Part shown: positions 23,817 to 43,010 of the stretch, piece after piece | Position numbering within the stretch: the first letter of the stretch is position 1 | Layout: every line of letters begins with the position of its first letter | Assembly: GCA_004299705.1 (NCBI GenBank) | Contig: SCQS01000012.1 | Span: 1-64,000, forward strand | Source: Rhodanobacteraceae bacterium | GTDB lineage: Bacteria; Pseudomonadota; Gammaproteobacteria; Xanthomonadales; Rhodanobacteraceae | Reading direction: 5' to 3' | DNA: 64,000 nt | Program-made: the position numbers and the translations under genes | Notes under the pieces: generated by a model | Database searches by the model: none | What the model was told of the DNA's origin: nothing | What the model saw: the letters and a program-made list of their open reading frames with translations, nothing else

Positions 23817-25711
23817 TTGCCGCCTCCCACCGGCAACGGCGCCAGCAACGACTTCAGGTAATCGGTCGTACCCGGAATGCGCACGAGATGCGGGTACTTC
23901 AAGCCGCCGTCGTAATGCACGGTGTAAGTCTTGATCGCGCCGTCGTGGCGCGCCTGGATCTGCAACGGCCGTTTGTCGCGCTGCGCAGCCGCGATGGCCC
24001 CGTGCAACACCTGCATGGTGTAGGCCTGCCCGTTGACGGAAACCAGTTGCATGCCGGGTGCCAGCCCCGCCTTGAACGCGGGGCCCTGCCACAACACGTC
24101 CTCGATCCGGCCGCTGCTCGAAATGAACAGGCCCACCGAGAACATCGCGTCGACGCCATGGCCTTCCAGTTCGCCCATGCCGACGTTCTCGATCGCCTTC
24201 TGGTAGGCCGACGGATTGTCGGTATAGACCAGCTTCCAGCCGCTGGCTTCGATGCCGGACAGCAACGGCACCTCGTCGCCCGTACCGTACAGCCAGCCGT
24301 GCAGGAACTTCGCCCAGTCGTACGGCTGTACCTTGTTCAGCGCGGCGACCACGTCGTTGAAGTCGTAGGTGTGGGTGACGAAGCTGCCGTTGTCGATGCC
24401 GTAAAAATCGCGCGCGAAGTCGACGAGGCTGCGCTGGTCGTGGCTGAGGTGCCGGATCTTCATGTCGACCGCCAGCCACAACAGCTCGCCCTCGCGATAG
24501 AAATCGTTCTGGCGACGCCAGTTGGCCCACGCCTCGGGCGCCGAATAATCCACAGCGATGGCGGTGTCGATCAGCGGCCGCCACGCGCGGCCGGTGCGAT
24601 GCGCCATCGCCGCGGCGCGATAGGCGACGACGTCGCGCCAGGTCTGCGGCGACCACAATCCGCTGCGCGCGGTGAGATCATCACCCAGGAAGACCGTCAG
24701 CCCTTCGTAAACCCACAGCATTTTGGTTATTTCGGGCTTCTCGAAGTTGGGCTGCCACAGGCCAGCGGGGCGCATGAACTTGCCGTTCCACGAATGCGTG
24801 TATTCGTGCGGCAGCAGCGACGCGTCCAGCATGAAGTGCGCCGGGTCGGCGAACATCTTGCTGCCGCCGCGCGCCTTGTCGTCGCTCGACTGATGGTGCT
24901 CCAACCCGCCCTTTGCGGTGTAATCACTCAAGGTCAGCAGGAAGTGGTAATTGTGGTAATGGTGCGAACGGAACAATGCCTGCGCCTGCTCGACCAGGTT
25001 GCGAAAGTCCTGCGTCTGCGTACCCGTAATCGCGATGGCTGACGGGCTGTCACCCACCAGGTCGAGATACCGGTGCACCGTTGAACCCGGCGGCGTCAGA
25101 TCGAGCTTGCGGAAATATTTTCCGGCGATCACCGGCGAATCGACCAGCGTGTTGTACGGCACCGGCTGGAACGTGATGCGCTGGCCGTCGCGGCGGGCGG
25201 TCTGCAACGCGGTGCCGTATTGCCAGTCGGCCGGGACCACCAGCGTCGGCTGGAACAGCTGATCTTTGGTCGGCTCACCTGCGCGGTACAGCGAGACATG
25301 ATCCCAGGTGAGGTCGATCAGGTTGTCCGTCACCCGATCGCTGGAGGGAAACTCGAAGCTGATGTCGATCTGGTGCACACCCGCTGGCACGGTCAAGTGA
25401 AACGTGAAGTGATCCAGCAAATCGCGCTGCCAGGCGATGCGCTGGCCGTTGCCCGAGAACTCGATGCCCATGACGTCCTGGATCGGGCCATCGGGCGAAT
25501 GGTCGCCGGGAATCCATTTCGGGTAGTACAACGTCAACGGCCCCGGCGAAACCGGCATCACCTCGTGCACGTAAAGGAGCTTCTGGCCAGGGTCGGGCAG
25601 GCTCACCGTCAAGGCGACGGTGCCGGGGGCGGGTTTCGCGCTCTCCGCGGCCATGCCGGACACGCACACGAACAGGGCCAGCGCGCCCAGCAGCCAAGTC
25701 AGTCGTTTCAT
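23813..25711 (-). CDS. M61 family (glycyl aminopeptidase-like) metallopeptidase with PDZ domain
   Basis: 632 residues, signal peptide at residues 1-22. The zinc motif HEYTH is at 302-306, followed by NGKFMRP and the MLWVYEGLTVFLGD segment that carries the third ligand (Glu). A PDZ domain at about 520-610 includes GPAFKAGLAPGMQLVSVNG. M61 peptidases prefer Gly/Ala at the N-terminus of peptides. ATG 25711 has GGAGGGAAC upstream. First gene of a two-gene operon with the transglutaminase-like protein. Confidence 0.92.
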   Translation of the reverse strand: MKRLTWLLGALALFVCVSGMAAESAKPAPGTVALTVSLPDPGQKLLYVHEVMPVSPGPLTLYYPKWIPGDHSPDGPIQDVMGIEFSGNGQRIAWQRDLLDHFTFHLTVPAGVHQIDISFEFPSSDRVTDNLIDLTWDHVSLYRAGEPTKDQLFQPTLVVPADWQYGTALQTARRDGQRITFQPVPYNTLVDSPVIAGKYFRKLDLTPPGSTVHRYLDLVGDSPSAIAITGTQTQDFRNLVEQAQALFRSHHYHNYHFLLTLSDYTAKGGLEHHQSSDDKARGGSKMFADPAHFMLDASLLPHEYTHSWNGKFMRPAGLWQPNFEKPEITKMLWVYEGLTVFLGDDLTARSGLWSPQTWRDVVAYRAAAMAHRTGRAWRPLIDTAIAVDYSAPEAWANWRRQNDFYREGELLWLAVDMKIRHLSHDQRSLVDFARDFYGIDNGSFVTHTYDFNDVVAALNKVQPYDWAKFLHGWLYGTGDEVPLLSGIEASGWKLVYTDNPSAYQKAIENVGMGELEGHGVDAMFSVGLFISSSGRIEDVLWQGPAFKAGLAPGMQLVSVNGQAYTMQVLHGAIAAAQRDKRPLQIQARHDGAIKTYTVHYDGGLKYPHLVRIPGTTDYLKSLLAPLPVGGGK

Positions 25712-25740
25712 TGTTCCCTCCGGAGCTTCAACATCAAAAT

Positions 25741-25848
25741 CTTTTTGTCCGCGAAGAACGCGAAGGTCGCGAAATAAAAGCTGATCAATCTTTTTGCTTC
25801 TCTTCGCGTCCCTGGCGTCCTTCGCGGACGAATTGCTTTTGCGTCCTG
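25741..25848. repeat. Degenerate CGCGAAG / CTTCGCG repeats
   Basis: Several copies of CGCGAAG, GCGAAGGTCGCGAA and, on the right, CTTCGCGTCC and CCTTCGCGGAC make a loose inverted repeat between the permease stop and the M61 start. Similar short CGCGAAGGAC repeats are common in proteobacterial gaps. Confidence 0.5.
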
Positions 25849-25860
25849 CCAACGCGCGCA

Positions 25861-27204
25861 TCACATCGCGGGCTGCATGCGCCGTTGCCACCACACCCAC
25901 AGGAAATACAGCGGCACGCCGACCAGCGTGATCAGGATGCTGGCGATGGTGGACCAGAACTGTGCGTACAGCGCGTTGGCGACCACCACGAAGGTCGCCA
26001 GCACGAACAGCGCGGGAATCACGGGATAGCCGAGCGCCTTGTACTTGCGGGGGAAGTCCGGACGTTTCCTGCGCAGGATGAACAGGCCGATCACGCACAG
26101 CGCCAGGAACGGCCACACGCCCAGCACGTAGCCTTCGGCGAGTTGCATGAAGTCGCGCAACAGCACGTAGATCACCGCCAGCACCACGATGAAGCCGATT
26201 GCGACATACGGCGTTTCGTATTTCGGATGCACCTTGCCGACGGTGCGGAAGAACAGGCCATCTTCGGCCATCGCGAAGAACACGCGCGGGCTGGAAAGGA
26301 TGCTGCCGTTCAAGGTGCCGAACACCGACAACATCACCAGCGCGCCGACCAGAGAGGCGCCGACGCGCCCCAGCACCACGCCTGCCGCATCTGCCGCGAC
26401 CGATTTCGATGCCGCGAGTTGCGGCAACGGCAAGGCGCGCAGGTACGCCGTGTTGATCAACAGGTACACCACGATCACCACCAGCACGCCGCCGATCAAC
26501 GCCAACGGCAGGTTGCGCTGCGGATTCTTCACCTCGCCCGACAGCGTGGTCAGGTTTTCCCAGCCGTCGTAGGCCCACAACGCCGCGATCAGGCCGATGC
26601 CGATGCCCGACCACTTGGCCACGCCCATGGGCTCGGCGTTGAGCGGGTTGTGTGCCCCGCCCGGCGCGAGGAAGAAGATCGCGGCGGACAGCCCCACGAT
26701 CGCCAGCACCTTGGCGCCGGTCGAAATGTTCTGGATATACGCGCCGAGTTTCACCGAACGATAATTCGCGGCCGCGACCAGGATGATCAACGCTGCCGCG
26801 ATCGCGTGCTGCACCTGTTCGGGAATCGGCACGAAGAAACCCAGGTATTCGGCGAACATCAGGCTTTGCGCCGCCCACGAAATCGGGGTGGTCAAAAGCC
26901 ACATCCAGCCGAACAGGAACGCCAACGGGCGCCCGTAGGCTTCCCGCAAATAAACGTAGGGGCCGCCCGCCGCCGGATACATCGCCGCGAGTTCCGCGAT
27001 CGACAGCGCGCCGAACAGCGCGACCACGCCGCCGAGTATCCATACCAGCGCGATGCCGGTCAGGTTGCCGGCCGCGCCCGCGATCGGCGATGGCACACGG
27101 AATATGCCGCTGCCGATGATCACGCCCACCACCACCGCCATGCCGGTGGCGAGGCCGAGTTTGCGCGGCAGTTCGCGCGGTGCGCTGACGGATGCTTCGG
27201 TCAT
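25861..27204 (-). CDS. APC superfamily amino acid permease/antiporter
   Basis: 447 residues, twelve membrane helices. The conserved GLATGMAVVVGVIIGSGIFRVP near residue 20 forms the substrate-site helix 1, and GEVKNPQRNLPLAL follows helix 6. It resembles LAT/ serine-threonine-type exchangers (GxGIF motif with AAGGPYVYLREAYG). Start ATG 27204 was chosen; a longer frame upstream adds a non-family tail. It is divergent from the TonB receptor gene. It may import amino acids released in the neighbouring peptide-degrading locus (inference). Confidence 0.9.
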   Translation of the reverse strand: MTEASVSAPRELPRKLGLATGMAVVVGVIIGSGIFRVPSPIAGAAGNLTGIALVWILGGVVALFGALSIAELAAMYPAAGGPYVYLREAYGRPLAFLFGWMWLLTTPISWAAQSLMFAEYLGFFVPIPEQVQHAIAAALIILVAAANYRSVKLGAYIQNISTGAKVLAIVGLSAAIFFLAPGGAHNPLNAEPMGVAKWSGIGIGLIAALWAYDGWENLTTLSGEVKNPQRNLPLALIGGVLVVIVVYLLINTAYLRALPLPQLAASKSVAADAAGVVLGRVGASLVGALVMLSVFGTLNGSILSSPRVFFAMAEDGLFFRTVGKVHPKYETPYVAIGFIVVLAVIYVLLRDFMQLAEGYVLGVWPFLALCVIGLFILRRKRPDFPRKYKALGYPVIPALFVLATFVVVANALYAQFWSTIASILITLVGVPLYFLWVWWQRRMQPAM

Positions 27205-27585
27205 GGCCGGGAATCGTACAGGTTCAGCGTGCGCCTGTTGAAGCCGTTCGCTTGATGCGATGCGCCAACCCGACACCCGCTGCACGCGTCGAATCGCAAG
27301 GCCGGCAGCGCTCTCGCGCGGCGTTCAGGAAACCGCCGCAGCACAAGACCATAACCGCGAGCTATGCCGGCTGCCGGTCTTTTCATTGGTGGACTTCGCG
27401 GCCCGTTGGGTATGCTCCACAGCGTGACGGACCCGGCGACCCCGCAACGGCCCCCTGACGTCATTGTTCGAGGGACCGTTCGAGGGATTCGAAGTTTGCA
27501 CATGACGCGCGCCGCAGCGAAGTGGCCAACCACCTTGCAGCAAATCAACCGCATCGAGTGACGCATCGACCGGGGAGTGGGAACC
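27205..27585. other. 381-base upstream region of the TonB receptor
   Basis: No gene is credible here. It separates divergent permease and receptor genes. It contains the 44-bp element at 27349-27392. A good ribosome site (GGGGAG) lies about ten bases before the receptor ATG at 27586. Confidence 0.7.
27349..27392 (+). promoter_or_regulatory. 44-bp shared upstream element, copy 1 (TonB receptor)
   Basis: Starts CCATAA, then after three bases CGAGCTATGCC, two bases, CTGCCGGTC, and the invariant TTTTCATTGG, ending TGG. It aligns without gaps to copies 2-4. It ends 193 bases before the receptor start and points toward it. Confidence 0.8.
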
Positions 27586-30500
27586 ATGAAGAGCAAGTCT
27601 CGGCATACGCCTCACCGCAACAACGTCTTCCGGCGCAAGGCGCTGGCCATCGCCATCGGGTCGGCTGCCCTGGGCTTTGCAGGCGCGGCCACCGCGCAAG
27701 CGGTCAATGGCACCATCTACGGCACCGTACCCGTGGCACAAGGGGAAACCGTCCAGATCACCGGCGGCGCGGGATTCAACCGCACCATCGCCGTGGGACC
27801 ATCGGGCAAATACTCGGTCACCCTGCCGGTCGGTACCTATACCGTGTCGCTGTTGCAGAACGGCAAAATCGTCCAGTCGCGTACCGATGTCAGCCCGGTG
27901 GCGGCGGGCGCGGTGGCAGTGGACTTCTCGACGTCGGCAGGCGCCCAGAACGTCACGATGCTCAACGCGATCAACGTCACGGCCAACGCCATCCCCGCGA
28001 TCGACGTCTCCACCACCAACCAGGTCACCACGATCACCGCCAAGCAGTTGCAGGTATTGCCCTTGCAACGTGACGCCGCCGACATCGCGATGCTTGCGCC
28101 GGGTGTCGGCATGGGTTCTCCGCAACTCGTCAACGGCCCATTGAACAACCCGATCAACGTGTTCGGCGGCGCGTCCACGGCCGAGAACGCGTATTACATC
28201 GACGGCATGAACGTCACCGATGCGCTGGATGCGCAGGGCGGCCTCGAACTGCCGTACGGCGCGATCGAACAGCAGCAGACCTTCATCAGCGGTTACGGCG
28301 CCAAATAACGGCCGATCCATCGGCGGCGTGATCAACCAGATCGGCAAGAGCGGTTCCAACGAATGGCATTTTGGCGTGCGTGCGCTGTGGCAACCCGCGG
28401 GGTGGGCCAGCGATTCCCGCAACTACTACTGGGCCAACCCGCTCTGGACGCAACCCGGCCAGACCCCGGGCAACCTGTATCAGTACAACAAGGGCAACCA
28501 CCAGCAGGAAACGATCTACGACGTCTACGTCAGCGGCCCGATCATCAAGGACAAGTTGTTCTTCTTCCTGGGCGCCGAGCAGGACAACATCAGCGGCACC
28601 TCGATCGGGTCTATCGTGAGTCCGTTCGCTTACAACTACCACAAGCACCAACCCAAGATTTATGCCAAGTTGAACTGGAACATCAACGACAGCAACATCC
28701 TGACCTTGACCGCGTTGCAGAGTTCGTACAAGAACTGGCAGGCGCAATACAACTACGACTACAGCACCTTTCTGCCCGGCAGCTTCTCTGCACTCAACCA
28801 GACCGGCAAGACCGCCGCGAGGATGTGGGTGCTCAACTACACGTCCTATCTCACCGACAACCTGACCCTGAACGCGATGCTGGGCAAGACGCGGGTCGAG
28901 TATTACACCCAGACTCCGGGGTTCCCGGGATTCGATCCTTCCCTTCCGTTCATCGGCAGCGCCTCGCTGCAAAATCCCGCGTTCATCCCGTCGGGCAGCC
29001 CCGGCATCGTCAACGCGCAGACCAGCGAGACCCAAAACATACCCTCGCATCAGGTCCACGTGATGAGTTACCGGGTGAGTCTGGACTGGAAATTGCCCTG
29101 GAACCTCTTCGGTACCCACGACATACAAGTCGGCATCGACAACATCAACTCCTGGGATCATGACGACGGCTTTGACATGACCGGCCCGGGCTACGCGTGG
29201 ATTTATGGGCAAAGCTCACCCGGCGCGCCGCTCTTCCTCTCCCCCGGTGGCCCGAGTGTCCCGCCGTACGCCGGCCCGGCGTGCTATGCGCCGGCCACCA
29301 CTTGCTACTACGTGGCGAAGCAGATCGACATCCAGAATGCGTCCGTCAAGGTCTTCCAGCGCGCCCAATACGTCGAGGACAACTGGCAGATCACCCCGAA
29401 CTTCCTGTTGAACCTGGGGCTGCGCAACGACCAATTCACAAACTTCGATGGTTCCGGCGTGCCGTACATCCGGCTCACCAAGCCGCAATGGGCGCCCCGC
29501 ATAGGATTCAGTTGGAACGTGCACGGCGACTCCACCCTGAAAGTGTTCGGCAACGCCGGTCGTTACTACCTTGCGCTTCCGCTGACCACCGCAACCTCCA
29601 TTGCCGCGCCCGTGACAGCCACCAACCAGTACGGGACCTACACCGGGATCGATCCCGCGACCGGCGCACCCATCGGATTCACGCCACTGCCGCAGAGCCC
29701 ATCGACGGGCGTGTCGATCGACAACGAGTACGGTCAGCCGAAGGACCCGAGGGTCTCCACGGCCCAGAACGTCAAGGCGGAGTTTTCCGACAACTTCGTG
29801 CTGGGCATGCAGCAGCAGTTCCAGATGCTGGGGACCAAATGGGTGTTCGGCGCCACCGGCACCTACCAGAAGATGAGCCGCATCATCGACGACGTCGACT
29901 GGGAACAAGGCGAATGCGCGGCGGGGCTGGCGCAGGGCTACACCTGGATGACGCCTGCCACCTGCAGCAACTGGGCCCAAAGCCTGGTGCTGATGAACCC
30001 GGGCGTGACCAACAACCTTTTGATGAAGGCGCCGGACGGCAGCCTCGTTCCGGTCACCTTTACGGCCGCGGACCAGAAGTTCCCGCGCGGGCCGACCCGC
30101 AAGTACTACTCGCTGGATCTGTCGCTGACGCACGAATGGGATGGCAAGTGGTTTGCCAAGTTCGACTACGTGTGGTCGCAGACCATCGGCAACACCGAAG
30201 GTCCGGTGAGCACCTATTCCCAGCAGAGCGGATCGTACGAATCGATCACGACGGCATGGGACTTCCCGGAAAGGATGCAGTATTCGTACGGCTTCCTGCC
30301 CAACGACCGCAGGAACCAGATCAAGATCTTCGGCGCGTACGCGATCAACAAGGACTTGACGGTCGGCGGCAACCTGTATCTGGCCTCCGGAACGCCGCGC
30401 ATGTGCAGGGGCGGCTACGGGCCGGACCAGCTGGCCCTGCATGGTTCACACACTTACTACTGGTGCGGCGGCGTGCCGGTACCGCCGGGTTCGCTGGGCC

Positions 30501-30727
30501 GTATGCCCTGGACCAAACGCGTGGATCTCAGCGTGGATTACAAACCCGCATGGGCCGATCACAAGCTCGACTTCAACCTCGCGGTGTTCAACGTGTTCAA
30601 CAGCCAGACGCCGTTGTTCGTCAACGATTTTTTCCTGACGACCAGCAATCCCAACCCCGAGTACGGAATCATCGAGAACAGCACGCCGCCGCGCTCGGTG
30701 CGGTTCTCCGTGTCGTATGACTTCTAG
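27586..30727 (+). pseudogene. Oar-like TonB-dependent receptor, one-base frameshift
   Basis: The two frames together give a receptor of about 1046 residues. The first part (27586-28308) has a signal peptide, a carboxypeptidase-regulatory-like domain (GTIYGTVPVAQGETVQITGG, GPSGKYSVTLPVGTYTV) and a plug domain ending ISGYGAK. The second part resumes with RSIGGVINQIGKSGSNEWHFG and runs as a beta-barrel to the terminal VRFSVSYDF, ending in Phe as outer-membrane proteins do. At 28303-28309 the sequence reads AAATAACGG where AAATACGG would keep the frame, so one A is extra. Oar-like receptors take up peptides or related large substrates. A terminator follows. The defect may be real or a sequencing error. 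Confidence 0.88.
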
Positions 30728-30748
30728 CCCGAAACCCGATCTCTCCCC

Positions 30749-30775
30749 CGCCGGGTGCGAGCCCGGCGTTTTTTT
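30749..30775 (+). terminator. Rho-independent terminator after the TonB receptor
   Basis: CGCCGGG and CCCGGCG form a stem around a short TGCGAG loop, followed by seven T residues. It begins 22 bases after the receptor stop and separates it from the sulfotransferase gene. Confidence 0.9.
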
Positions 30776-30806
30776 GTCTGCGGGATCGACCGGGCTGACT
30801 TGTAAT

Positions 30807-32468
30807 ATGGGCGCAGTCAACCAAGGCATGGGCCTCCATTTGGTGCCTGATACGCAGCCGCCACAGTCGACCCAGCGTCAGCCGTTGTCGCCCGTCACGC
30901 GCCGTTTGCTGGCGCGGGCGCGTGAGGAATGGACACAACACGAGTTCGCAGCGGCCGAACGCTCGCTGACCAACGTGCTGTCCCTGGCTCCAGACGATCC
31001 CGAGGCCACGCGGATGCTGGGCGGCGTGGTGCTGCGCCTCGGCAAGCATGCCAAGGCCATCGAATGTTTCCGGAAAGTCCTTCCCGTGTGGCCCGACGAC
31101 GACGACCTGCGACTCGGGCTGGGGATCGCGTTGTATGAACAAGGTGAGGTCGACGAGGCCCTGCGGCACCTGCGGTGCGCCTGTGAAATTGCGCCGACTT
31201 CCGCATCCGCATGGTTCAACCTCGGCGAGGCGCTGGCACGCGAGGCACACACTCCGGAAGCCACCCCATCCCTGCAGCGCGCACTCGAACTCGACCCGGC
31301 GCACATCACGGCCCGGCTTTCGCTGGCCAAGGCACAGGCGAACCTGGGTCATGTCGACGCCGCGGTCGCCGGGTTCCGCGAGGTGCTGCGCCGCGACCCC
31401 GGCAATGCCGAGGGCTGGTTCGGGCTGTCGAATCTCAACACGGTGCGTTTCGATGCCGCGGATGCAGCATCGCTGAAGCAAGCCCTGGCGCGTCACAACT
31501 TGTCGGAACGCGACCGCGAGCTGTTGGCTTTCACCTACGCGAAGGCGCTGGAAGACCAAGGCGATTACGCGCAAGCCTTCGAGGCATTCCGCACCGCCAA
31601 TGCATCGCGCCGCCAGCGCATCCGCTGGGATGCCGCCGGGGAGCACCGCCGCGTCGAAGCCATCCTGCGTGTATTTGCAAACGAGATGCCGGCGCCATTG
31701 GATGCGCAGCTTGGCCGCGAAGCCATCCTGATCGTCAGCATCCCGCGCTCCGGGTCGACGCTGGTCGAGCACATCCTCGCTTCGCACCCCGAGGTCGAGG
31801 GCGCGAACGAGATCAAGGATCTGCAGAACGCGATCGACGCGGAAACCCAACGTCGACGCTCGGCCGGCTCCAATACGGCGTACCCGTTGTGGGCGCCGGA
31901 TGCGACCGCCGCGGATTGGCAGCGTCTCGGCCGCGAATACATGGCCCATACCGCGCGTTGGCGCGAGCGCAAACCGCGCTTCACCGACAAGAGCCTGATC
32001 ACCTGGTACCTGGTCGGCCCGGCGCTGGCGATGTTGCCAGCCGCGCGCGTGGTGGTCGTCCGGCGCGACCCCGTGGAAACCTGCCTCGCGTGCTTCCGCC
32101 AGTGCTTCAGCGAACGTAGCGGTTTCGCCTGCGACCTCGACGAGATGGCCGACTACTGCGCCGACTTCCTGCGCGTCACGCGCTTCTGGGTGGACAAGTA
32201 CCCCGATCGCGTGATGGATTTGCAGTACGAATCATTGGTGGCCAACCCGGAAGCCGAAATCCGCCGCATGCTGGATTTCTGCGGCCTGCCGTTCGACCCG
32301 GCTTGCCTCGAGCCGCACAAGGCACGGCGCACGGTGCAGAGCCTGCCCAGCGCCGCGCAGGTGCGCCAGCCGATCCACGCCGGCACGGCGCGCAGCGCGT
32401 TGTACGGCGACAAGCTGGATCGACTGCGTCGGCGGTTGCGGGATGCGGGGGTGATCGCAAATGAGTAG
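30807..32468 (+). CDS. TPR-repeat sulfotransferase family protein
   Basis: About 553 residues. Residues 30-260 hold five or so TPR repeats (EWTQHEFAAAERSLTNVLSL, LGKHAKAIECFRKVLPVWP, ASAWFNLGEALA). From about 310 a sulfotransferase domain follows: ILIVSIPRSGSTLVEHIL is the 5'-phosphosulfate loop for PAPS and VVVVRRDPVETCLACF the 3'-phosphate site. Such TPR-sulfotransferases often follow Oar-like TonB receptors in xanthomonads; the acceptor is unknown. Start is ambiguous between ATG 30807 and ATG 30828; neither has a clear ribosome site. A terminator between this gene and the receptor suggests its own promoter. Confidence 0.87.
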   Translation: MGAVNQGMGLHLVPDTQPPQSTQRQPLSPVTRRLLARAREEWTQHEFAAAERSLTNVLSLAPDDPEATRMLGGVVLRLGKHAKAIECFRKVLPVWPDDDDLRLGLGIALYEQGEVDEALRHLRCACEIAPTSASAWFNLGEALAREAHTPEATPSLQRALELDPAHITARLSLAKAQANLGHVDAAVAGFREVLRRDPGNAEGWFGLSNLNTVRFDAADAASLKQALARHNLSERDRELLAFTYAKALEDQGDYAQAFEAFRTANASRRQRIRWDAAGEHRRVEAILRVFANEMPAPLDAQLGREAILIVSIPRSGSTLVEHILASHPEVEGANEIKDLQNAIDAETQRRRSAGSNTAYPLWAPDATAADWQRLGREYMAHTARWRERKPRFTDKSLITWYLVGPALAMLPAARVVVVRRDPVETCLACFRQCFSERSGFACDLDEMADYCADFLRVTRFWVDKYPDRVMDLQYESLVANPEAEIRRMLDFCGLPFDPACLEPHKARRTVQSLPSAAQVRQPIHAGTARSALYGDKLDRLRRRLRDAGVIANE

Positions 32469-32505
32469 GGCCTGTTTCAAAAATATGCCTGCGAATGTTT
32501 TGCTC

Positions 32506-32620
32506 GTCATCCCCGGGCCGCCCGCGCTGTTTGCGGGCGGAACCCGGAATCCGATGTCTTTGCTCCGGGTTCGAAAAGACACTGGATTCCGGATCGCCGC
32601 TACGCGGCGTCCGGAATGAC
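32506..32620. repeat. GTCAT...ATGAC inverted repeat element
   Basis: The left end is GTCATCCCCGG, the right end CCGGAATGAC. Inner hairpins GCCGCCCGCG / TGCGGGCGG and GATCGCCGCTACGCGGCGTC are visible. The last bases of the element provide the ATG of the following amidase frame. Confidence 0.82.
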
Positions 32621-33401
32621 GATCAATTGTCCATTTCCGTGCGTGCGAGTTGCTGGTCTGCTCTTGGGCTGCGCAGCGTTGATACTGTTATCTGCCTGCG
32701 CCCCGCTGCCGCCACGCAACCCGATCGCAACCTGGGTGCCATCGAAGAACTACGACATCCGCAAGCCGCAGTTGATCGTGCTGCACTTCACCGATCAGGA
32801 TTCGGTCGCGCAGGCGTTGAACACCTTGCGCACCCACAACCCGGGCGGGCCGGTCAGCGCGCATTACCTGATCGGACGCGATGGCCACACCTACCAACTG
32901 GTCAGCGAAGTCGATCGCGCCTGGCATGCCGGCGGTGGACGTTGGGGCACCATCACCGACGTCAACTCGGCGTCCATCGGCATCGAACTCGACAACAACG
33001 GCGACGAGCCATTCCCGCCCGCGCAGATCGCCAGCCTGCTGCGGCTGCTCGCCGACATCACCACGCGCTGGGACATCCCGCGCGCACAAATCATCGGCCA
33101 CGAAGACCTGGCGCCTGCGCGCAAGGACGACCCGGGCCCGCTGTTCCCGTGGGCCACGCTGGCCGCGCACGGTTTCGGCCTGTGGCCCGATCCGCCCGCC
33201 ACGCTGGTCGATCCCCCGCCCGGCTTCGATCCGTGGATGGCGTTGACCGCGATCGGCTATCCGCTGGACGATCCGCAAGCCGCGGTGCGCGCGTTCCACA
33301 ACCACTTCCGTGGCATCGGCGGCGACACGCTGGACGCCGAGGACATGAAGATCCTCTACAACTTGGTCGGCAAGATCGAGCACGGCGATACCGAGAAATA
33401 G
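32616..33401 (+). CDS. N-acetylmuramoyl-L-alanine amidase, AmiD-like lipoprotein
   Basis: 261 residues. An Amidase_2 (T7-lysozyme-like) domain with zinc ligands in LIVLHFTDQD, the AHYLIGRDG turn, DRAWHAG and IIGHEDLAPARKDDPGPLFPW. A C-terminal PG_binding-like helical domain includes DPQAAVRAFHNHFRG. The N-terminus is a lipoprotein signal (LLLGCAALILLSAC). It cleaves the bond between N-acetylmuramic acid and L-Ala, releasing murein peptides. ATG 32616 lies in a repeat; GTG 32643 (about nine residues shorter) would give a more standard signal peptide and may be the true start. Confidence 0.88.
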   Translation: MTINCPFPCVRVAGLLLGCAALILLSACAPLPPRNPIATWVPSKNYDIRKPQLIVLHFTDQDSVAQALNTLRTHNPGGPVSAHYLIGRDGHTYQLVSEVDRAWHAGGGRWGTITDVNSASIGIELDNNGDEPFPPAQIASLLRLLADITTRWDIPRAQIIGHEDLAPARKDDPGPLFPWATLAAHGFGLWPDPPATLVDPPPGFDPWMALTAIGYPLDDPQAAVRAFHNHFRGIGGDTLDAEDMKILYNLVGKIEHGDTEK

Positions 33402-33414
33402 GCCATTACGGAAC

Positions 33415-34707
33415 ATGACGCAGCACGACTTCAAACCCACGCTCGACGCCTTCACCAAGGGCGCGCCCTCGCACCGCTTGTCCGGCAACGAACCCGTTGC
33501 GCAGCGCGGCTGGAACGTCCTGCGCGAAGACATGCCGTTGCCGCTAGCGGTCATCAAACGTTCGGTGCTGGAAGCCAACAGCCGCTGGATGCAGGCCTTC
33601 ATGCGCAAGCTGGGCGTGCAGTTCTGCCCGCACGGCAAGACCACGATGAGCCCGCAGTTGTTTGCAAGGCAGCTCGCGGACGGCGCATGGGGCATCACCT
33701 GCGCCACGCCGCAACAACTCAACGTGGTGCTGGCCGCGGGTGCGCGCCGCGCGCTGGTCGCCAACCAGATCGTGGGACGCGCCAACATCGACATGCTGCT
33801 GGCGGCCGTGCAGGGCCATCCCGCCGCGGACATCCACCTGCTCGCGGATTCCATCGAAGCCGTGCGCGCCCTGGCCTCGCGGGCACGCGAACTGCAGGTC
33901 ACCCGGCCGATTTTCGTGCTGGCCGAACTCGCGGCGCGCGGATCGCGGACGGGCTGCCGAAACATCGCGTCGCTCGTGGAGGTGGCCACGGAAGTCGCGC
34001 GGCATCACCCGCACCTGATACTGGCCGGCGTCGAAGGCTACGAGGGCACCATCGCGACATCCGATCCCGCCGCCGCGGCACACGCCGTGACCGATTTTGC
34101 CGAACAATTGCTCGACGCCGCCGGCGAACTGGATCGACGCGGACTGTTCCAGCACGTTGAATCGATCATTCTCAGCGCCGGTGGCTCGGAGTACTTCGAC
34201 ATCATCGCGTTGACGCTGCGCAAGGCGCGCCTGTCGCAACCGGCCGAAGTCGTGCTCCGAAGCGGCTGCTATCTCACCCACGACACCCTGCACTACTCCG
34301 CGGCGTTCGAGCGCATCCGCTCGCGCACCGGCGAGGCGCGCGAAGGCGCGGGACTCAAGCCGGCATTGGAAGTCTGGGCCTATGTGCAGTCCCGTCCCGA
34401 ACCGACGCGTGCCTACGCCAACATGGGCAAGCGGGATGTTTCAAGCGACTGGGATCTGCCCGTTGCGGTTCGCTGGTTCCGGCCCGGACGCGATTCGGTT
34501 CCACAAGCCGTGCCGGAAAATGTGAAGATCACCGCACTCAACGACCAGCACGCACACCTCGAGTGCCCTGCCGACTCGCCCCTCGCGATCGGCGACATGC
34601 TGGCCTTCGGCATTTCCCACCCCTGCACCACGTTCGACAAATGGCGAACGCTGTACCTGGTCGATGACGACTACACCGTCGTCGACGTTGTCCAGACCTG
34701 CTTTTGA
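33415..34707 (+). CDS. D-serine dehydratase-like PLP enzyme (DSD1/ D-threonine aldolase fold)
   Basis: 430 residues, alanine-racemase fold-type III. The PLP lysine is in [10 protein letters not shown] (Lys75). The C-terminal beta domain ends with [17 protein letters not shown], whose His and Cys bind zinc in the D-serine dehydratase and D-threonine aldolase families. Such enzymes deaminate or cleave D-hydroxy amino acids. It follows the amidase by 13 bases and overlaps the convergent dadA gene by 37 bases. The exact substrate (D-Ser, D-Thr or another D-amino acid) is open. Confidence 0.87.
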
Positions 34708-35972
34708 AGGGTGTGAGGTTTGCGGTAGCGTGAAATATCGAATCCTTCGGTATCGATTTGTGGCAATGCCCCCGTGATCAGGTCGGCAAGGTAACGCCCC
34801 GAACCGCACGCCATGGTCCAGCCCAGCGTGCCGTGGCCGGTGTTGACAAAAAGATTTCGGATGGGCGTGGCGCCGACCACGGGCGTGCCGTCCGGCGTCG
34901 CCGGTCGCAGGCCCGTCCAGAGTTGTCCTCGCGCAAGGTCGCCGCCTTGCGGGTACAAACCCGTGAGGACTTTTTCCAGTGTCGCCCGCCGTCGAGGCGG
35001 CATCGTCATGTCGAAGCCGCACAGTTCGGCCATGCCGCCGACGCGGATGCGCTGGTCGAAGCGGGTCACGGCGACCTTGTAGGTTTCGTCCAGTACGGTC
35101 GAGGCAGGCGCCATCGCCGAATCGGTGATGGGCACGGTCAGCGAATAACCCTTGAGTGGATATACCGGGAGACGAATGCCCAACGGCGCAAGCAAACGTG
35201 GGGTATGGCTGCCGAGCGCCAGCACGCAGCGATCCGCACGCTCGTTTCGGCCGTCGATGCGCACGCCGGTGACGCGGTCGCCGGAAGCCTCGAGTGATTC
35301 CACCATCGCCCCGTAACGAAACTCCACACCCGCGGCTCGCGCACGTTCCGCGAGCCGCCGCGTGAACAGTTCGCAATCGCCGGTTTCATCGCGCGGCAGG
35401 CGCAATGCACCCGCGAAACGATCGACCATGCCAGCCAGCGCCGGCTCCACCTTGGCGATGCCGGTACGATCGAGCATTGCGTACGGCACGCCGAAGCGCT
35501 GCAACACCGCGATGTCCTTGCCGGCGGCATCCAGTTGTGCCTGCGTGCGGAATACCTGCAAGGTGCCCAGTTGCCTGCCCTCGTATTCCAGACCGAGTTC
35601 GTCGCGCAACGCGTCGAGGCAATCGCGGCTGTAGCGCGCCAAGCGCAGCATGCGCGCCTTGTTGACCGCATAGCGCCGTGCCGTGCAATTGCGCAGGAAC
35701 TGCAACAACCAAAGGTATTGGTGCGGATCGAGGCCGGGCTTGATGACCAGCGGCGCGTGCCGGGAGAACAGCCACGCCAGCGCCTTCAGCGGCACGCCGG
35801 GCGCCGCCCACGGCGCGGCGTAGCCGGGCGAGATTTGGCCCGCGTTCGCGAAACTGGTTTCCTGTGCGGGGCCCGCTGCGCGATCCACCACCGTCACTTC
35901 GCAGCCCGCGCGCGCGAGATACCACGCGCTGCATACGCCGATGACGCCGCTGCCGAGAACGAGTACACGCAT
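34671..35972 (-). CDS. dadA: D-amino acid dehydrogenase (DadA family)
   Basis: 433 residues. N-terminal FAD-binding [17 protein letters not shown] (GxGxxG at 7-12), then the DadA segments [22 protein letters not shown] and [17 protein letters not shown], and the C-terminal [16 protein letters not shown]. It oxidises D-amino acids such as D-alanine to 2-oxo acids and passes electrons to the respiratory chain. Start ATG 35972 has GAGG nine bases upstream. It is convergent with the D-serine dehydratase-like gene. Confidence 0.93.
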
Positions 35973-36002
35973 CGCTTTCGAATTCCTCAGGAGCCCCGAC
36001 AC

Positions 36003-36155
36003 GGATCAACGCGGTTGAACTCGAATCAATGGCTTTCACCCGTATCCATCCGCATCAAAAGCTTTGACGCGGATCAACGCGGATGAACACGGATTTACAG
36101 CTTTTATCCGTTCTTGTCCGCTTTTATCCGTGTCGAAAAGCTCCTCGCCACGCGG
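36003..36155. repeat. CGGATCAACGCGG / ATCCGTGTC repeat, copy 1
   Basis: Between dadA start and the amidohydrolase stop. It holds GACGCGGATCAACGCGGAT and the inverted TTTTATCCGTGTC, with a more degenerate half-copy at 36003-36040. The core resembles 42868-42949 closely. Confidence 0.65.
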
Positions 36156-36180
36156 CAAGCCCAATCGTGTGCGTTGTCAT

Positions 36181-38061
36181 TCACTCCGCGTGATCGAACT
36201 CGGGCATCGCCTTGAACAACTGTCCCTTGCGCCACTTGTCGGCGCCCGGGCGCGCATAGACGACCTTGCCGCCGATGATGGTGTACAGCACCCGCGTGCG
36301 CAGGATGTCGTCGGAGGGCATCGTCAACAAGTCGCCGGAGAACACATCGATATCCGCGAGCTTGCCGGGCGCCAACGACCCGAGTTCGTGGTCCTCGAAG
36401 ATCGCGTAGGCGTTGTTCCAGGTGTAGTCGCGCAATTCCTGCCGGGGCGTCTTGACCTCCGCCGGGAAGAACGTCTTCCTGCCGTGATCGTAGGCACGCG
36501 TCACCGCGCAATAGAACACCGGGATCGGGTTGGTATCCTCGACCGGCGTGTCGGTGCCGTCCAATACCATCGCGCCGCTTGCGATCAGTTTGTGCCAGAC
36601 ATAGGCGCCCTCCTGCGCACGCTTCTCGCCGATGCGCGGCACCACCATTGGCGCATCCGAACAGGCGTGGATGGATTGCATGGACGCGATCACGCCCAGC
36701 TCCGCAAAACGCGGAATGTCCGCAGGGTTCAGGTGCTGTGCGTGTTCGACGCGCCAGCGCAGTGCCTGCGCCGCCGGGTCTTCGGCGAAAATTTTCTGGT
36801 AGAGATCCAGCACTTCGCGATTGGCGCGGTCGCCGATCGCGTGGATCGAAACCTGGAAGCCGTCGCGCGCCGCGATCTTGGCGATCTGCGCCAGATCACT
36901 CATCGGCGTCACGTTCTTGCCGGTGATGCCGGGCGCGTCGCTGTACGGCTCAAGGAACCACGCGCTGCGCGTACCCAGCGCGCCGTCGGAAACATCCTCG
37001 CCCACGCCACGCACGGTGAAGTGGTTGTCAGCAAAACCGATAATGCGGTACTTGGCGAGGTTCTTGTCGAGGCTCGCGACATTCTCGACATCGACGTTGA
37101 CGTACAGGCGCAGCGGCAGGCCCTTGGCGGCCTGCTGCTTCAGCCAGTCGATGGTCTGGAAATCCTCGCCCATGTCGACGAAGCTGGTGATGCCCTTGCT
37201 GATTTCGTTCTGCACCGCGAGTTGCAACGCCTTCTCGCGGCGCGCGTTGCGTTCGGCCGGCGTCAGCGAGGCAATGTATTTCTGGTGGGCGCGATGCACG
37301 GGATCGGCCGCGGTGTCGGTCAGCATCCCGATGGCGTGGCCCTGCTTGTCGCGCACGATGGTGCCGCCGGGCGGGTTCGGCGTGCTGTCGGTGATGCCGG
37401 CCAGCTTCAGCGCCGCGGCATTGGCGTACACGCCGTGGTAGCTGGCCGTGATCAGCATCACCGGATTGTCGGGCGACACGGCATCCAGACTGGTCGGCAA
37501 CGGCAGGCCCAGCACGTTCGGCTGCGGCACGCGGTTCCACTTGTTCTGCAACCAGCCGAAGCCCACGATCCACTGCCCCGGCTTGGCCTTGGCGACGGCG
37601 GCCTTGACCATTGCGACGATGCCGTCCCAGTTCCTGGCCTTGCCGACGTTGATCTGCATGAGCGATTCGCCGGTCTGCAGCAGGTGCCCGTGGCCCTCGA
37701 TGAAGCCGGGCGTCACGAACGCGCCGTGCAGGTCCATGACCTTGGTGTGCGGGCCGATGTAATGCGCGATGCCGGCGTTGCTGCCGACCGCCTCGATCTT
37801 GCCGCCTCGAATCGCCAGAGCCTGCGCGTCGGGCTGCGACGGGTTTTCGGTGGCAATGGTGGCATCACGCAACACCAGGTCGGCGGGTTGTGGCGTGGGC
37901 GGGAACCCATCAACCGGCGGACTCGCCGCAAACACTTTCGCGAAGCTGGCATCGGCCGCCTGCAGCGCCGACGACGAGCCAGCAACCGGCGCGCTGGCTG
38001 CGAATGCCGAGGCGGCGACAGCCAACGCAATGCCCGCAAATGCAAAGTGGAATGACTTCAT
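36181..38061 (-). CDS. YtcJ-type metal-dependent amidohydrolase, exported
   Basis: 626 residues with a signal peptide (IALAVAASAFA). The amidohydrolase-3 fold is seen in LVLRDATIATENPS, the metal motif PGFIEGHGHLLQ, FQVSIHAIGDRANREVLDLY with metal-binding His, and the C-terminal LGSLAPGKLADIDVFSGD. YtcJ-like enzymes cleave amide bonds; substrate not assigned. In this locus an N-acyl amino acid is a reasonable guess. ATG 38061 has a GGAGGGGTTCG region upstream. A copy of the 44-bp element lies 101 bases upstream of the start. Confidence 0.88.
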   Translation of the reverse strand: MKSFHFAFAGIALAVAASAFAASAPVAGSSSALQAADASFAKVFAASPPVDGFPPTPQPADLVLRDATIATENPSQPDAQALAIRGGKIEAVGSNAGIAHYIGPHTKVMDLHGAFVTPGFIEGHGHLLQTGESLMQINVGKARNWDGIVAMVKAAVAKAKPGQWIVGFGWLQNKWNRVPQPNVLGLPLPTSLDAVSPDNPVMLITASYHGVYANAAALKLAGITDSTPNPPGGTIVRDKQGHAIGMLTDTAADPVHRAHQKYIASLTPAERNARREKALQLAVQNEISKGITSFVDMGEDFQTIDWLKQQAAKGLPLRLYVNVDVENVASLDKNLAKYRIIGFADNHFTVRGVGEDVSDGALGTRSAWFLEPYSDAPGITGKNVTPMSDLAQIAKIAARDGFQVSIHAIGDRANREVLDLYQKIFAEDPAAQALRWRVEHAQHLNPADIPRFAELGVIASMQSIHACSDAPMVVPRIGEKRAQEGAYVWHKLIASGAMVLDGTDTPVEDTNPIPVFYCAVTRAYDHGRKTFFPAEVKTPRQELRDYTWNNAYAIFEDHELGSLAPGKLADIDVFSGDLLTMPSDDILRTRVLYTIIGGKVVYARPGADKWRKGQLFKAMPEFDHAE

Positions 38062-38162
38062 CGAACCCCTCCGATCAACGCGTGAATACCGACCGCGTGC
38101 TCCGTCCGGAAGCAACCTGCATGGTCAAAATCGGAACGAGGATAAGCCGCCGCGGCCAGCGA

Positions 38163-38206
38163 CCACCAATGAAAAGACCGGCATGTTACATAACCGGACG
38201 TTGTGG
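38163..38206 (-). promoter_or_regulatory. 44-bp shared upstream element, copy 2 (YtcJ amidohydrolase)
   Basis: On the minus strand it reads CCACAA, three bases, CCGGTTATGTA, two bases, ATGCCGGTC and TTTTCATTGG, ending TGG. It lies between the LysR stop and the amidohydrolase start and is oriented toward the latter. This copy also shows a near-palindrome CCGGTTATGTAACATGCCGG. Confidence 0.85.
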
Positions 38207-38222
38207 GTACGCGCGCGCCGCG

Positions 38223-39137
38223 TCACGCCGGGTTTCGATCCTGTGTCAGCATCCGTTGCGCCAGTTGCCGCACCAGGTCCAGAAAGCGCTTCTGCACCGG
38301 GTTCAGCGGATTGTCGGGCCGGTACATCGCGTACAGCACGACTTCGAGGTGCGGCTTCAGCGAACGCATCTGCACGCTGCCCGCGCCACCGCAACGCGCC
38401 GTGAAGGGATCCACCAGCGCCAGCCCCTCGCCCTTCGCCACCAGCGTGTGGGCCAACTGGTAGGTCTGCACCGAAACCGCGGTGCGCGGCGCCGGTTCCA
38501 ACTGTGCAAGATGACTTTGCAGCATGTTGCCCAACGCATCGCGCACGGTGATGCCGACCATCGGCTGGCCGGCCAGCGCGCTGATCGGAAGCGGCTGCGA
38601 CAACTCCTTCTCGGGCCACCAACCGGGCGGCGCGATCACCATCACGTGGCCGCGGCACAGCACCTTCTGGCGCAGGGTCTGGTGGCCGGTATCCTGCAGC
38701 GTCAGCCCGATGTCGGTTTCGCGCAACGACAGCGCTTCGCACATCACGGCCGAGTGCTGGGTGGACAGCTCCGCTGCGGCATCCGGAAACGCCTTGCGCA
38801 ACAGCACGGTGGCGGCAGGCAGCAGCACCTGCGCCAGCGTCGGCGTGCAGGTCACCCGCAACGGGCAACTGCCCGGCTGGCCCATGCTGCTGGTCAGTCG
38901 CTGCAGGTCGTGCACGTCCTGGATGATCTTCTCGATGCGGTCGCGCAACTGCAGCGCCTGCTGGGTGGGCTGCAGGCGCCCGCGCACCCGGCTGAACAGG
39001 GCAAAGCCGAGTTTGTCTTCCGCATGCTGCAAGGCTTTGCTGGCGGCCGGCTGCGAGATGTTCAACAGCTTGGCGGCGCCGGTCAGGCTGCCCGTCGTGA
39101 GCACGGCATGGAAAAGTTCGATGTATCGCAGACGCAT
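38223..39137 (-). CDS. LysR family transcriptional regulator
   Basis: 304 residues from ATG 39137. The N-terminal winged helix-turn-helix reads LRYIELFHAVLTTGSLTGAAKLLNISQPAASKALQHAE, a standard LysR DNA-binding domain. The C-terminal two-lobe effector domain begins near residue 88 (LRVTCTPTLAQVLLP). It is divergent from the P1 peptidase gene with 150 bases between, the usual place for a LysR target promoter. It is the only regulator in the D-amino-acid region, hence the first candidate to bind the 44-bp elements (inference). Confidence 0.92.
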   Translation of the reverse strand: MRLRYIELFHAVLTTGSLTGAAKLLNISQPAASKALQHAEDKLGFALFSRVRGRLQPTQQALQLRDRIEKIIQDVHDLQRLTSSMGQPGSCPLRVTCTPTLAQVLLPAATVLLRKAFPDAAAELSTQHSAVMCEALSLRETDIGLTLQDTGHQTLRQKVLCRGHVMVIAPPGWWPEKELSQPLPISALAGQPMVGITVRDALGNMLQSHLAQLEPAPRTAVSVQTYQLAHTLVAKGEGLALVDPFTARCGGAGSVQMRSLKPHLEVVLYAMYRPDNPLNPVQKRFLDLVRQLAQRMLTQDRNPA

Positions 39138-39287
39138 GTCGAGAGTTGCCCTCCGCCCCCCGATGATGATATTGCTTGAGCGCCGCCGGTTTGCCAACAA
39201 CACGCGGGCATGACTTTCGGCAGGGTTCGACACGCCCGGCAAGGCGCGTTCGAACCGCAAAACTTGTCCACGCCAAAGGGGTAGCGC

Positions 39288-40466
39288 ATGGTTTCCCGCC
39301 TCGTGGTCGCAGCGATCCTGTTGCTGGGCTGTGCGCCCGCTTTCGCCCAGCACCAGGACCTGCGCGCCTACGGAATCGACATCGGGGTACTGCAACCCGG
39401 GCGCTGGAATGCAATCACGGACGTACCGGGTGTCAGGGTCGGCCAGAAAACCCTGATCCAGGGCCATGACGTGCGCACGGGCGTCACCGCCATCCTGCCG
39501 TACCCCGGCAACATCTTCCGGGACAAGGTTCCGGCCGCGGTCTACGTCGGCAACGGTTTCGGCAAGCTGACCGGCGCCACGCAGATCGCGGAACTCGGCA
39601 ACATCGAAACGCCGATCGTCCTGACCAACACGTTGAGCGTGCCGACCGCGGCGGATGCCCTGATCGACTACACGTTTTCATTCCCGGCCAACGCCGACGT
39701 GCTGTCGGTCAACCCGGTGGTGGGCGAAACCAACGACGGCTATTTGAACGACATCCGCGGCCGCCACGTGACCAAGCAGGACGTGCTGGACGCCATCAAA
39801 TCGGCGCAAACCGGCCGGGTCGCGCAAGGCGATGTCGGCGCCGGCACGGGAACCGTGGCGTTCGGCTACAAGGGCGGGATCGGAACCTCGTCCCGGAAAC
39901 TGCCGGCATCGCTGGGCGGCTACACCGTCGGCGTGCTGGTGCAGACAAACTTCGGCGGCGTGCTGGACATCGCCGGCGTGCCGGTCGGGAAACTGCTGCA
40001 CCATTATTACCTCAGCGACAAGTTGAACGATTCGCCCGACGGCTCCTGCATGATCGTGGTGGCCACCGACGCGCCGCTGGCTTCGCGCAACCTCGAACGC
40101 CTCGCGAAGCGGGCGATCCTGGGGCTTGCGAAAACGGGCGGCATCGAATCGAACGGCAGCGGCGATTACGTGATCGCCTTCTCCACCAACAAGGCGGTAC
40201 GGATGCCGTATCAAGCGGCAAGTCCGTTGCGGCAGGAAAAGGTCCTGCGCAACGATGCGATGTCACCCTTGTTCATGGCTACCATCGAGGCGACCGAGGA
40301 GGCCATCATCAATTCCCTGTTCCACGCCCAGAGCATGACCGGACGCGACCATCACCAAGTCGCCGCCTTGACCGTCGACAAGGTGCTCGAAATCATGCGG
40401 CAGCGCGGCTACCCGGTTGTCGAATCGGGCAAGCCCGCTCCTGCGGGGGCCGGTTCGAAGCCCTGA
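39288..40466 (+). CDS. P1 family peptidase (DmpA-like aminopeptidase)
   Basis: 392 residues with a signal peptide (VAAILLLGCAPAFA). The DmpA family processes itself before a serine that becomes the N-terminal nucleophile; here the site is DGSCMIVVATDAPL with Ser253. NAITDVPGVRVGQKTLI near the start and GAGTGTVAFGYKGGIGT in the middle are hallmarks. Family members remove N-terminal amino acids, including D-residues and beta-alanine, from short peptides. Ribosome site AAAGGGG lies before ATG 39288. Divergent from LysR. Confidence 0.92.
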   Translation: MVSRLVVAAILLLGCAPAFAQHQDLRAYGIDIGVLQPGRWNAITDVPGVRVGQKTLIQGHDVRTGVTAILPYPGNIFRDKVPAAVYVGNGFGKLTGATQIAELGNIETPIVLTNTLSVPTAADALIDYTFSFPANADVLSVNPVVGETNDGYLNDIRGRHVTKQDVLDAIKSAQTGRVAQGDVGAGTGTVAFGYKGGIGTSSRKLPASLGGYTVGVLVQTNFGGVLDIAGVPVGKLLHHYYLSDKLNDSPDGSCMIVVATDAPLASRNLERLAKRAILGLAKTGGIESNGSGDYVIAFSTNKAVRMPYQAASPLRQEKVLRNDAMSPLFMATIEATEEAIINSLFHAQSMTGRDHHQVAALTVDKVLEIMRQRGYPVVESGKPAPAGAGSKP

Positions 40467-40490
40467 CGTGGCAGAAAGAACCTTTACATC

Positions 40491-40541
40491 GTCATTCCTG
40501 GGCGCCTGCGGCTTCATTGCAGGCGAACCCGGAATGGCGAC
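40491..40541. repeat. Short GTCATTCC repeat
   Basis: GTCATTCCTGGGCGCCTGC and GCAGGCGAACCCGGAATG form a compact hairpin of the GTCATTCC family, 24 bases after the P1 peptidase stop. It may end or stabilise that transcript. Confidence 0.7.
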
Positions 40542-40599
40542 GTTCTTTGCCAATATGCAAGGCCAATCGGGCAACCCGAGCGGCGAAGGCCCCAACCAC

Positions 40600-40643
40600 T
40601 CACAACTCCCGGTTATGCCTGATGCCCGTCTTTTCATTGGCAG
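40600..40643 (+). promoter_or_regulatory. 44-bp shared upstream element, copy 3 (dgcN-dgcA)
   Basis: TCACAA, three bases, CCGGTTATGCC, two bases, ATGCCCGTC, TTTTCATTGG, ending CAG. This copy shows the tandem ATGCC-N2-ATGCC most clearly. It ends 80 bases before dgcN and points toward it. Confidence 0.85.
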
Positions 40644-40723
40644 GCGCCGGCCACCGGCGGATAACCTCGTGCAAGCGATTGGGGCAAGCACCAGGCACGA
40701 TGAATCTCCGAAGGAACGAATAC

Positions 40724-41767
40724 ATGTCCGAACACGGGGCAATCCCGGGCCAGGCCCAGTGGGGGCCACCCTACCTGTTGTACCTCGGGCAGGCCGCCGA
40801 CAACCTGGCCATCAAGACGGCCAGGGGCCTGGCCTACTGGCGTCCCGAGTGGTGCATCGCGCAACATCGGCATCCCGATTGCCGTTTCACGCTGGGCTTG
40901 CCGGAAATGGGCTTTGCGGAAGCGCGTGCGGCCGGCGCCGACACCATGGTGATTGGCACCGCGAACGCGGGCGGCGTGATGGCCGCTGAAACCGTCGCCG
41001 ACACCGTCGCCGCGCTCGATGCCGGCCTCAACGTGATCGCCGGCCTGCACCAGAAACTGCGCGACAACGCCGACATCGTCGCCGCCGCCCGGCGCAACGG
41101 CAGGGTGCTGTTCGACGCGCGCGAACCGGTCGGCCCCCTGCCCGTCGGCAGCGGCCGCAAACGCACCGGACACCGCCTGCTGACCGTGGGCACCGATTGT
41201 TCGGTCGGCAAGATGTACACCTCGCTCGCCCTCGAACGCAGCATGCGCAAGCGTGGCCTCAAGGCGGATTTCCGTGCCACCGGGCAAACCGGCATCTTCG
41301 TCGCCGGTGGCGGCATCCCCGTGGATTCGGTGATCGCGGATTTCATCTCGGGCGCGGCCGAGGCGATTTCACCCGCGCGCGACGATGGCGGCTGGGACCT
41401 GATCGAGGGCCAGGGCTCGCTGTTCCACCCGTCCTACGCGGGCGTGTCGCTGGGTCTGCTGCACGGCTCCCAGCCCGACGCACTGGTGTTGTGCCACGAA
41501 CCCACGCGCGCGCACATGCGCGGGCTGCCGGATTTTCCGATCCCCGACCTGCAGCAATGCCTGGACGCCAATCTCGTCGCGGCGCGCCTGACCAACCCCG
41601 CGGTCAAGGCGGTCGGGATCGCGCTCAACACCTCCGGCCTCGACCAGCATGAAGCGCTCGCGGCCTGCCGCGAGATCAGCCGCCGACTCGGCCTGCCCTG
41701 CCAGGATCCCGTCAGCATGGGCGTCGAAGCCATCGTGGACAACCTGCTGGCATGCTGCGCGAACTGA
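40724..41767 (+). CDS. dgcN: DgcN-type D-glutamate N-acetyltransferase (DUF1611)
   Basis: 347 residues. DUF1611 family with a P-loop GTDCSVGKMYTSLALE near residue 160, then FRATGQTGIFVAGGGIPVDSV, EGQGSLFHPSYAGVSLGLLHG and LCHEPTRAHMRG. In marine bacteria DUF1611 proteins named DgcN acetylate D-glutamate as the first step of D-Glu catabolism (family knowledge). The start ATG 40724 has AAGGAA eight bases upstream. The stop overlaps the enolase-superfamily gene by 16 bases, the DgcN-DgcA arrangement. Confidence 0.87.
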   Translation: MSEHGAIPGQAQWGPPYLLYLGQAADNLAIKTARGLAYWRPEWCIAQHRHPDCRFTLGLPEMGFAEARAAGADTMVIGTANAGGVMAAETVADTVAALDAGLNVIAGLHQKLRDNADIVAAARRNGRVLFDAREPVGPLPVGSGRKRTGHRLLTVGTDCSVGKMYTSLALERSMRKRGLKADFRATGQTGIFVAGGGIPVDSVIADFISGAAEAISPARDDGGWDLIEGQGSLFHPSYAGVSLGLLHGSQPDALVLCHEPTRAHMRGLPDFPIPDLQQCLDANLVAARLTNPAVKAVGIALNTSGLDQHEALAACREISRRLGLPCQDPVSMGVEAIVDNLLACCAN

Positions 41768-42738
41768 CGATCCGCCATTCAAGCCTGCCGCTGCATTCGC
41801 CGTTCCGCATCTCGCGCGGGGTCAAGCACGCGGCGGAGGTGGTCACGGTCGAACTTCGGCAAGGCGATTGCGTCGGACGCGGCGAATCGGTGCCCTACCC
41901 GCGCTACGGTGAATCGATGGTGTCGGTGCTCGCCCAGGCCGAGTCGTTGCGCAGGGAGCTTTGCGCCGGCATGGGTCGCGACGAGCTGCAGGCGCGGCTC
42001 GAACCCGGTGCCGCACGCAACGCACTGGATGCGGCGCTGTGGGATCTGGAATCGAAGCTCACCCGCGTGCCGGTATGGACGCGGCTGGCGCGACCGTCGC
42101 ACGCGCCGCTCACCACGGCGCTGACCCTCAGCATCGATACGCCCGAGGCCATGGCCGAGGCCGCCGCGCGCATCGCGGATGCCGGACTGATCAAGATCAA
42201 GGTCGACGCCACCGAGCCGGCCGCGCGCATCGAGGCCGTGCGGCGCGCGGCACCGGCCGCCGCGCTGATCGTCGATCCCAACGAAAGCTGGAACATCGAA
42301 ACCCTGCGCGATCTTCAGCCGGCGCTGGCGCGTGCAGGCGTGCGCCTGCTGGAACAACCGCTGCCCGCCGATGCCGACGATGACCTGCTCGGGTTTTCAA
42401 GCGACGTTCCGATCTGCGCGGACGAAGCCTGCCACACCACGGCGGACCTGCCGCGCCTGCGCGGCCGTTACCAGGCCATCAACATCAAGCTGGACAAGAC
42501 CGGCGGCCTGACCGAAGCATGGCGCCTGCTGCGCGCAGCCCGCGCCGACGGGTTCCGCATCATGGTCGGCTGCATGGTGTGCTCGTCGCTGGGCATCGCG
42601 CCCGCACTGGAGGTCGCGCGGGAAGCCGAGTTCATTGATCTGGACGGGCCACTGTGGCTGGAACACGATCATGCTGGCGGCGTGAAGCTCGAAGGTGGTT
42701 TGCTGTCGCCGCCCGCGCCGGGATTCTGGGGCGGGTGA
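41752..42738 (+). CDS. dgcA: DgcA-type N-acetyl-D-glutamate racemase / dipeptide epimerase
   Basis: 328 residues, enolase superfamily, MLE/dipeptide-epimerase subgroup. Catalytic pattern: KIKVD (Lys148, Lys150), metal ligands Asp175 (VDPNESW), Glu201 (LEQPLP) and Asp224 (ADEACH), and the opposite-face Lys246 (NIKLDKTGG). It could epimerise L-Ala-D/L-Glu dipeptides or N-acetyl-Glu. The tight coupling to dgcN favours the second, i.e. turning N-acetyl-D-Glu into N-acetyl-L-Glu. No deacetylase gene follows. Confidence 0.88.
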   Translation: MLRELTIRHSSLPLHSPFRISRGVKHAAEVVTVELRQGDCVGRGESVPYPRYGESMVSVLAQAESLRRELCAGMGRDELQARLEPGAARNALDAALWDLESKLTRVPVWTRLARPSHAPLTTALTLSIDTPEAMAEAAARIADAGLIKIKVDATEPAARIEAVRRAAPAAALIVDPNESWNIETLRDLQPALARAGVRLLEQPLPADADDDLLGFSSDVPICADEACHTTADLPRLRGRYQAINIKLDKTGGLTEAWRLLRAARADGFRIMVGCMVCSSLGIAPALEVAREAEFIDLDGPLWLEHDHAGGVKLEGGLLSPPAPGFWGG

Positions 42739-42949: not shown

Positions 42950-43010
42950 AGGCTTTCGCTTTGGGGCAGGGATCACGCGGCTCGGGATTGCGCAAAGTTT
43001 TCGGCACCGT

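Follow-up and report, generated by a model that had tools for sequence, protein, structure and literature searches.

Putative inactivation, by a very recent frameshift, of one member of a set of related TonB-dependent receptors in a Rhodanobacteraceae genome

The window analysed here comprises the first 64,000 nucleotides of contig SCQS01000012.1 from the Rhodanobacteraceae bacterium assembly GCA_004299705.1, and carries on its forward strand a TonB-dependent receptor gene that is split between two reading frames. The 5′ fragment (27586..28308) starts at the ATG at 27586 (a GTG at 27577 also opens this frame), runs for 240 codons to 28305 and terminates at an in-frame TAA at 28306-28308. It codes for a leader region, recognized by reading of the translation, an N-terminal extension and the N-terminal plug of a TonB-dependent receptor, the latter being recovered by the Pfam Plug model (PF07715) at 23.2 bits in one search, barely below the cut-off of 23.9, and above it at 25 bits in another. 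The 3′ fragment (28310..30727) comprises the end of the plug and the C-terminal barrel in a frame that is open from 28307 and closes with a TAG ending at 30727. It is detected by both PF25183 (100.2 bits, cut-off 30) and PF00593 (31.2 bits, cut-off 27), and its terminal residues, ...SVSYDF, supply the aromatic end of the barrel in the form of a final Phe. With the upstream piece in frame 1 and the downstream piece in frame 2, the frames and the alignment to relatives place a net displacement of +1 at 28306..28309; thus, the plug and the barrel do not belong to a single polypeptide. This is the one-base frameshift of the original prediction, and its placement at the plug-barrel boundary was nearly exact: by our own arithmetic, the Plug match in the two unbroken paralogues (contigs C8 and C37) ends eight codons past the equivalent of the broken codon, which would put the break in the final stretch of the plug, just ahead of the barrel. 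Receptors with the PF25183 (OMP_b-brl_4) barrel are known as Oar-like; the window receptor resembles them in its high-scoring barrel and in possessing a plug, but differs from them in being divided between two frames.

The receptor is preceded by the first copy (27350..27393, forward strand) of a 44-bp element, 192 nt before the ATG, as had been noted for this DNA. The element consists of a CATA...TATG half-palindrome followed by a TTTTCATTGG core, and its T-N11-A spacing is similar to that of sites bound by LysR-type regulators. Further copies are found in the window at 38166-38191 on the reverse strand and at 40615-40640 on the forward strand, with a 65% copy around 43012 on the forward strand being seen in only one of the element searches. 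Another copy lies before the paralogue on contig C8 (7902-7927, forward strand), and several homologues in other genomes are also preceded by the element. By our reading, the copies mostly stand ahead of gene starts. Among the 11 other receptor genes examined, the core was present upstream of nine, including those of Rudaea, Fulvimonas and Dyella, and went undetected ahead of the C37 and Rhodanobacter receptors.

The downstream neighbor of the receptor is an open frame (30807..32468, forward strand, with a start codon of our choosing) in which the domain search detects a TPR-repeat sulfotransferase. DNA matching this gene also adjoins the receptor copies in three genomes of the same genus (G006, G008 and G014) and those on contigs C8 and C37; the C37 receptor has such a matching stretch on either side. 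The locus should be annotated as one broken receptor gene with a sulfotransferase neighbor, rather than as two receptor-related genes. Further downstream, the encoded domains are an amidase, a putative serine dehydratase, an FAD-dependent oxidoreductase (DAO), an amidohydrolase, an S58 peptidase, DUF1611, an enolase-superfamily enzyme and a gamma-glutamyltranspeptidase, followed by a pyridoxal-dependent decarboxylase and two beta-lactamase-family proteins. Judged by their domains, the enzymes of this run (32616-49725) suggest the breakdown of amino acids, D-amino acids and peptides. In G006, G008 and G014, parts of the run likewise have matching DNA close to the receptor. A functional link between the receptor and these enzymes, as first proposed for this DNA, is plausible from the neighborhood.

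Across the break, all 29 homologous loci examined are open; hence, the frame is broken only in the window copy, with its homologues intact. These loci, drawn from a search of the genus and from named genome records, correspond to 28 distinct ones (L007 and L046 are the same contig) and include paralogues, two of them from the window's own genome; in three (L016, L022 and L034) the open frame reaches the end of the fetched DNA. Duplicates (L008, L011 and L014), a split paralogue of G014 discussed below (L023 and L029), a barrel-only fragment (L048) and weak or partial matches were left out of this count. The genus search took in 16 genomes including the window's own, of which 13 gave a match. 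An orthologue with 71-91% identity over the barrel is present in eight of the 15 other genomes, the copy in G003 being cut short by a contig end, while the other seven yield no match, weak matches, or only less similar or partial copies. The scan of named genome records contributed 16 loci, among them Lysobacteraceae and Lysobacterales metagenome-assembled genomes, Rudaea, Fulvimonas, Dyella and Rhodanobacter. The closest orthologue, that of G006, is 91% identical over the barrel and aligns with the window receptor at the DNA level for 3.2 kb at 86.3% identity. This alignment contains a single non-triplet gap inside the gene, at 28308, and another at 30736, past the stop codon. In line with the earlier claim that the sequence past the break is well conserved up to the C-terminal Phe, the 805 codons of the barrel align to G006 without any gap. 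An Rfam scan of 26500-32500 at E-values up to 1 and a megablast search against plasmid records both gave no match.

The gene shows the pattern of selection of a functional receptor. With the plug-side and barrel pieces aligned separately and the break codon omitted, the comparison with G006 yields dN/dS values of 0.149 over 234 plug-side codons and 0.107 over 805 barrel codons, both falling inside the range of the intact-gene pairs in the same comparison. To the window branch, 35 amino-acid and 53 synonymous changes can be assigned, as against 27 and 67 to the G006 branch; this amounts to a weak, non-significant excess of amino-acid changes on the window lineage (Fisher p = 0.12). A search of the 1,039 receptor codons for a further stop found none; under neutral evolution, this limits the divergence accrued after the break to about 0.027 substitutions per site at most (95% bound). 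Given these values, the receptor gene appears to have been constrained until recently, and a long-dead pseudogene, in which a second stop would be expected, is ruled out. Moreover, since half of the synonymous distance to G006 is about 0.27, the break is either very recent or absent from the organism itself.

Surface receptors are classic targets of phase variation, and the break was originally offered as recent damage, a phase-variable site or a sequencing error. A slipped-strand switch turning the receptor on and off could find some support in the related split receptor of G014, where six consecutive C lie in the overlap between its frames. However, the window site lacks an unstable repeat tract: no single-base run within about 60 nt exceeds AAA, in agreement with the earlier remark that the site is not a long homopolymer, and the sole short repeat in that range is a set of three CAG units about 28 nt upstream. 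As the frame is also unbroken at this site in all 29 loci, we regard phase variation as very improbable. A stop in one frame with coding continuing in the next is also the formal layout of a programmed +1 ribosomal frameshift, which would still yield a full-length receptor. Such sites are recognized by a prfB-like slippery codon and a ribosome-binding stimulator, but inspection by eye revealed neither here. Further, the RNA fold around the break is no better than that of shuffled sequences (z 0.02), and the site is conserved in none of the 29 loci, the homologues being simply open. Programmed frameshifting is accordingly the most far-fetched of the readings, and the open homologues, the featureless fold and the missing repeat tract lead us to reject both mechanisms, which even jointly retain very little probability. 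Of the original interpretation, the one-base change as recent damage or an error is borne out, and so is the view that slipped-strand variation is the less likely option.

An error of sequencing or assembly, whereby the organism's gene is intact and the deposited consensus is off by one base, is the rival of greater weight. In its flanks and its selection pattern, the locus looks like a functional gene, and an error would leave equally pristine flanks, which counts against a genuine loss. The assembly is also a draft in 78 contigs and offers no independent copy of the locus: a protein search for a second haplotype in the same assembly found none, the only other strong matches being the C8 and C37 paralogues. 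Against an error stands the quality of the surrounding sequence. Relatives' DNA covers 56,477 nt of the window, of which 53,842 nt are predicted to be coding, and a test sensitive to frame offsets that persist for at least 75 aligned columns returned 25 offsets; four of these represent the break site against four different relatives, and the other 21 lie, by reading of the printed coding states, at or between predicted gene ends. The break is therefore, as we read it, the sole within-gene one over the 53.8 kb of predicted coding sequence compared with relatives, and indels do not seem to be spread through the assembly. The script's own flag for offsets inside a coding stretch fired for none of the 25, being silent even at the break site because the coding model put the plug stretch on the other strand. 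This model, derived from the codon usage of the contig, missed the break by calling the plug stretch antisense; hence, the reading frame was taken from the relatives and the model was used only for coding stretches and gene ends. Along the 182-kb contig, it reports 17 places at which coding stretches in one frame closely adjoin each other, with an intervening stop in 14, as well as a more extensive set of close frame changes; these look like neighboring genes. The site not being a homopolymer likewise speaks against an error, as does the state of the other receptors in the genome: 22 of the 23 Plug-domain matches lie in open frames of 640-1,211 aa, i.e., at least 640 aa, and only the window copy is in a short frame, of 248 aa. 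On balance, we consider an assembly error a substantial possibility, albeit not the likelier account.

We instead favor, with moderate confidence, a genuine frameshift that has very recently abolished the function of one member of a set of related PF25183-barrel TonB-dependent receptors. Besides the 29 open loci, the constraint seen until recently and the solitary within-gene break, which support this reading, the genome encodes two more members of the subfamily (contigs C8 and C37), 57% and 55% identical to the window copy and in long open frames, and this redundancy supports it too. It is rendered more credible by a second PF25183 receptor of the same assembly on contig C69 (about 24271-26169, reverse strand), the only one of 22 barrel matches in the genome with an internal stop. 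The stop is an in-frame TAG past which the frame continues to a terminal Phe, and the position is occupied by Trp in all eight relatives that span it, from the 14 loci supplied. In our judgement, a base substitution to a stop is less likely to arise as an assembly error than an indel; thus, the C69 gene makes a real loss of receptors in this strain more credible, without proving it for the window site. From these observations we infer that the organism does carry the allele and has lost the function of the receptor.

If the frameshift is genuine, translation would yield a 240-residue leader-plus-plug fragment and then stop. By reading of its translation, the barrel frame starts with no export signal, and since this is so, the receptor would not be expected to reach the outer membrane. 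The strain should then lack the split receptor, and schemes in which a pathway has it as the only entry gate would fail for this strain; nevertheless, its loss need not close any pathway, because two receptors of the same subfamily persist in open frames. If the break is an error, the receptor gene is simply intact.

The broken receptor is an unremarkable example of a familiar phenomenon. In the account of Xanthomonas fuscans 4834-R, four of the 70 TonB-dependent transporter genes are described as pseudogenes and five as having missing or incomplete domains, and 81 of 137 putative pseudogenisations as frameshifts following a short indel, short indels being the leading source of pseudogenes there (PMC3826837). 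The likeness lies in the inactivation of one paralogous TonB receptor with the retention of related ones. Unlike in X. fuscans 4834-R, where several frameshifts are described as confirmed by resequencing (PMC3826837), the break in the window is known from the assembly alone; its genome also differs from X. fuscans in that its relatives are recorded as Lysobacteraceae and Lysobacterales metagenome-assembled genomes, Rudaea, Dyella, Fulvimonas and Rhodanobacter.

A third lesion is found in G014, a same-genus genome in a single contig, where the frame change with the above-mentioned six-C run divides a receptor paralogue (contig C1, about 844235-846681, reverse strand). One could speculate that such receptors are repeatedly knocked out by selection in this lineage, the pressure coming for instance from phages or peptide toxins that enter through them, in which case the lesions in the window, on C69 and in G014 would have arisen separately as escape mutations and not through neutral decay; we hold this to be unlikely. 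TonB receptors as phage receptors, and the lower phage sensitivity of FhuA mutants, are among the subjects discussed in PMC12054119.
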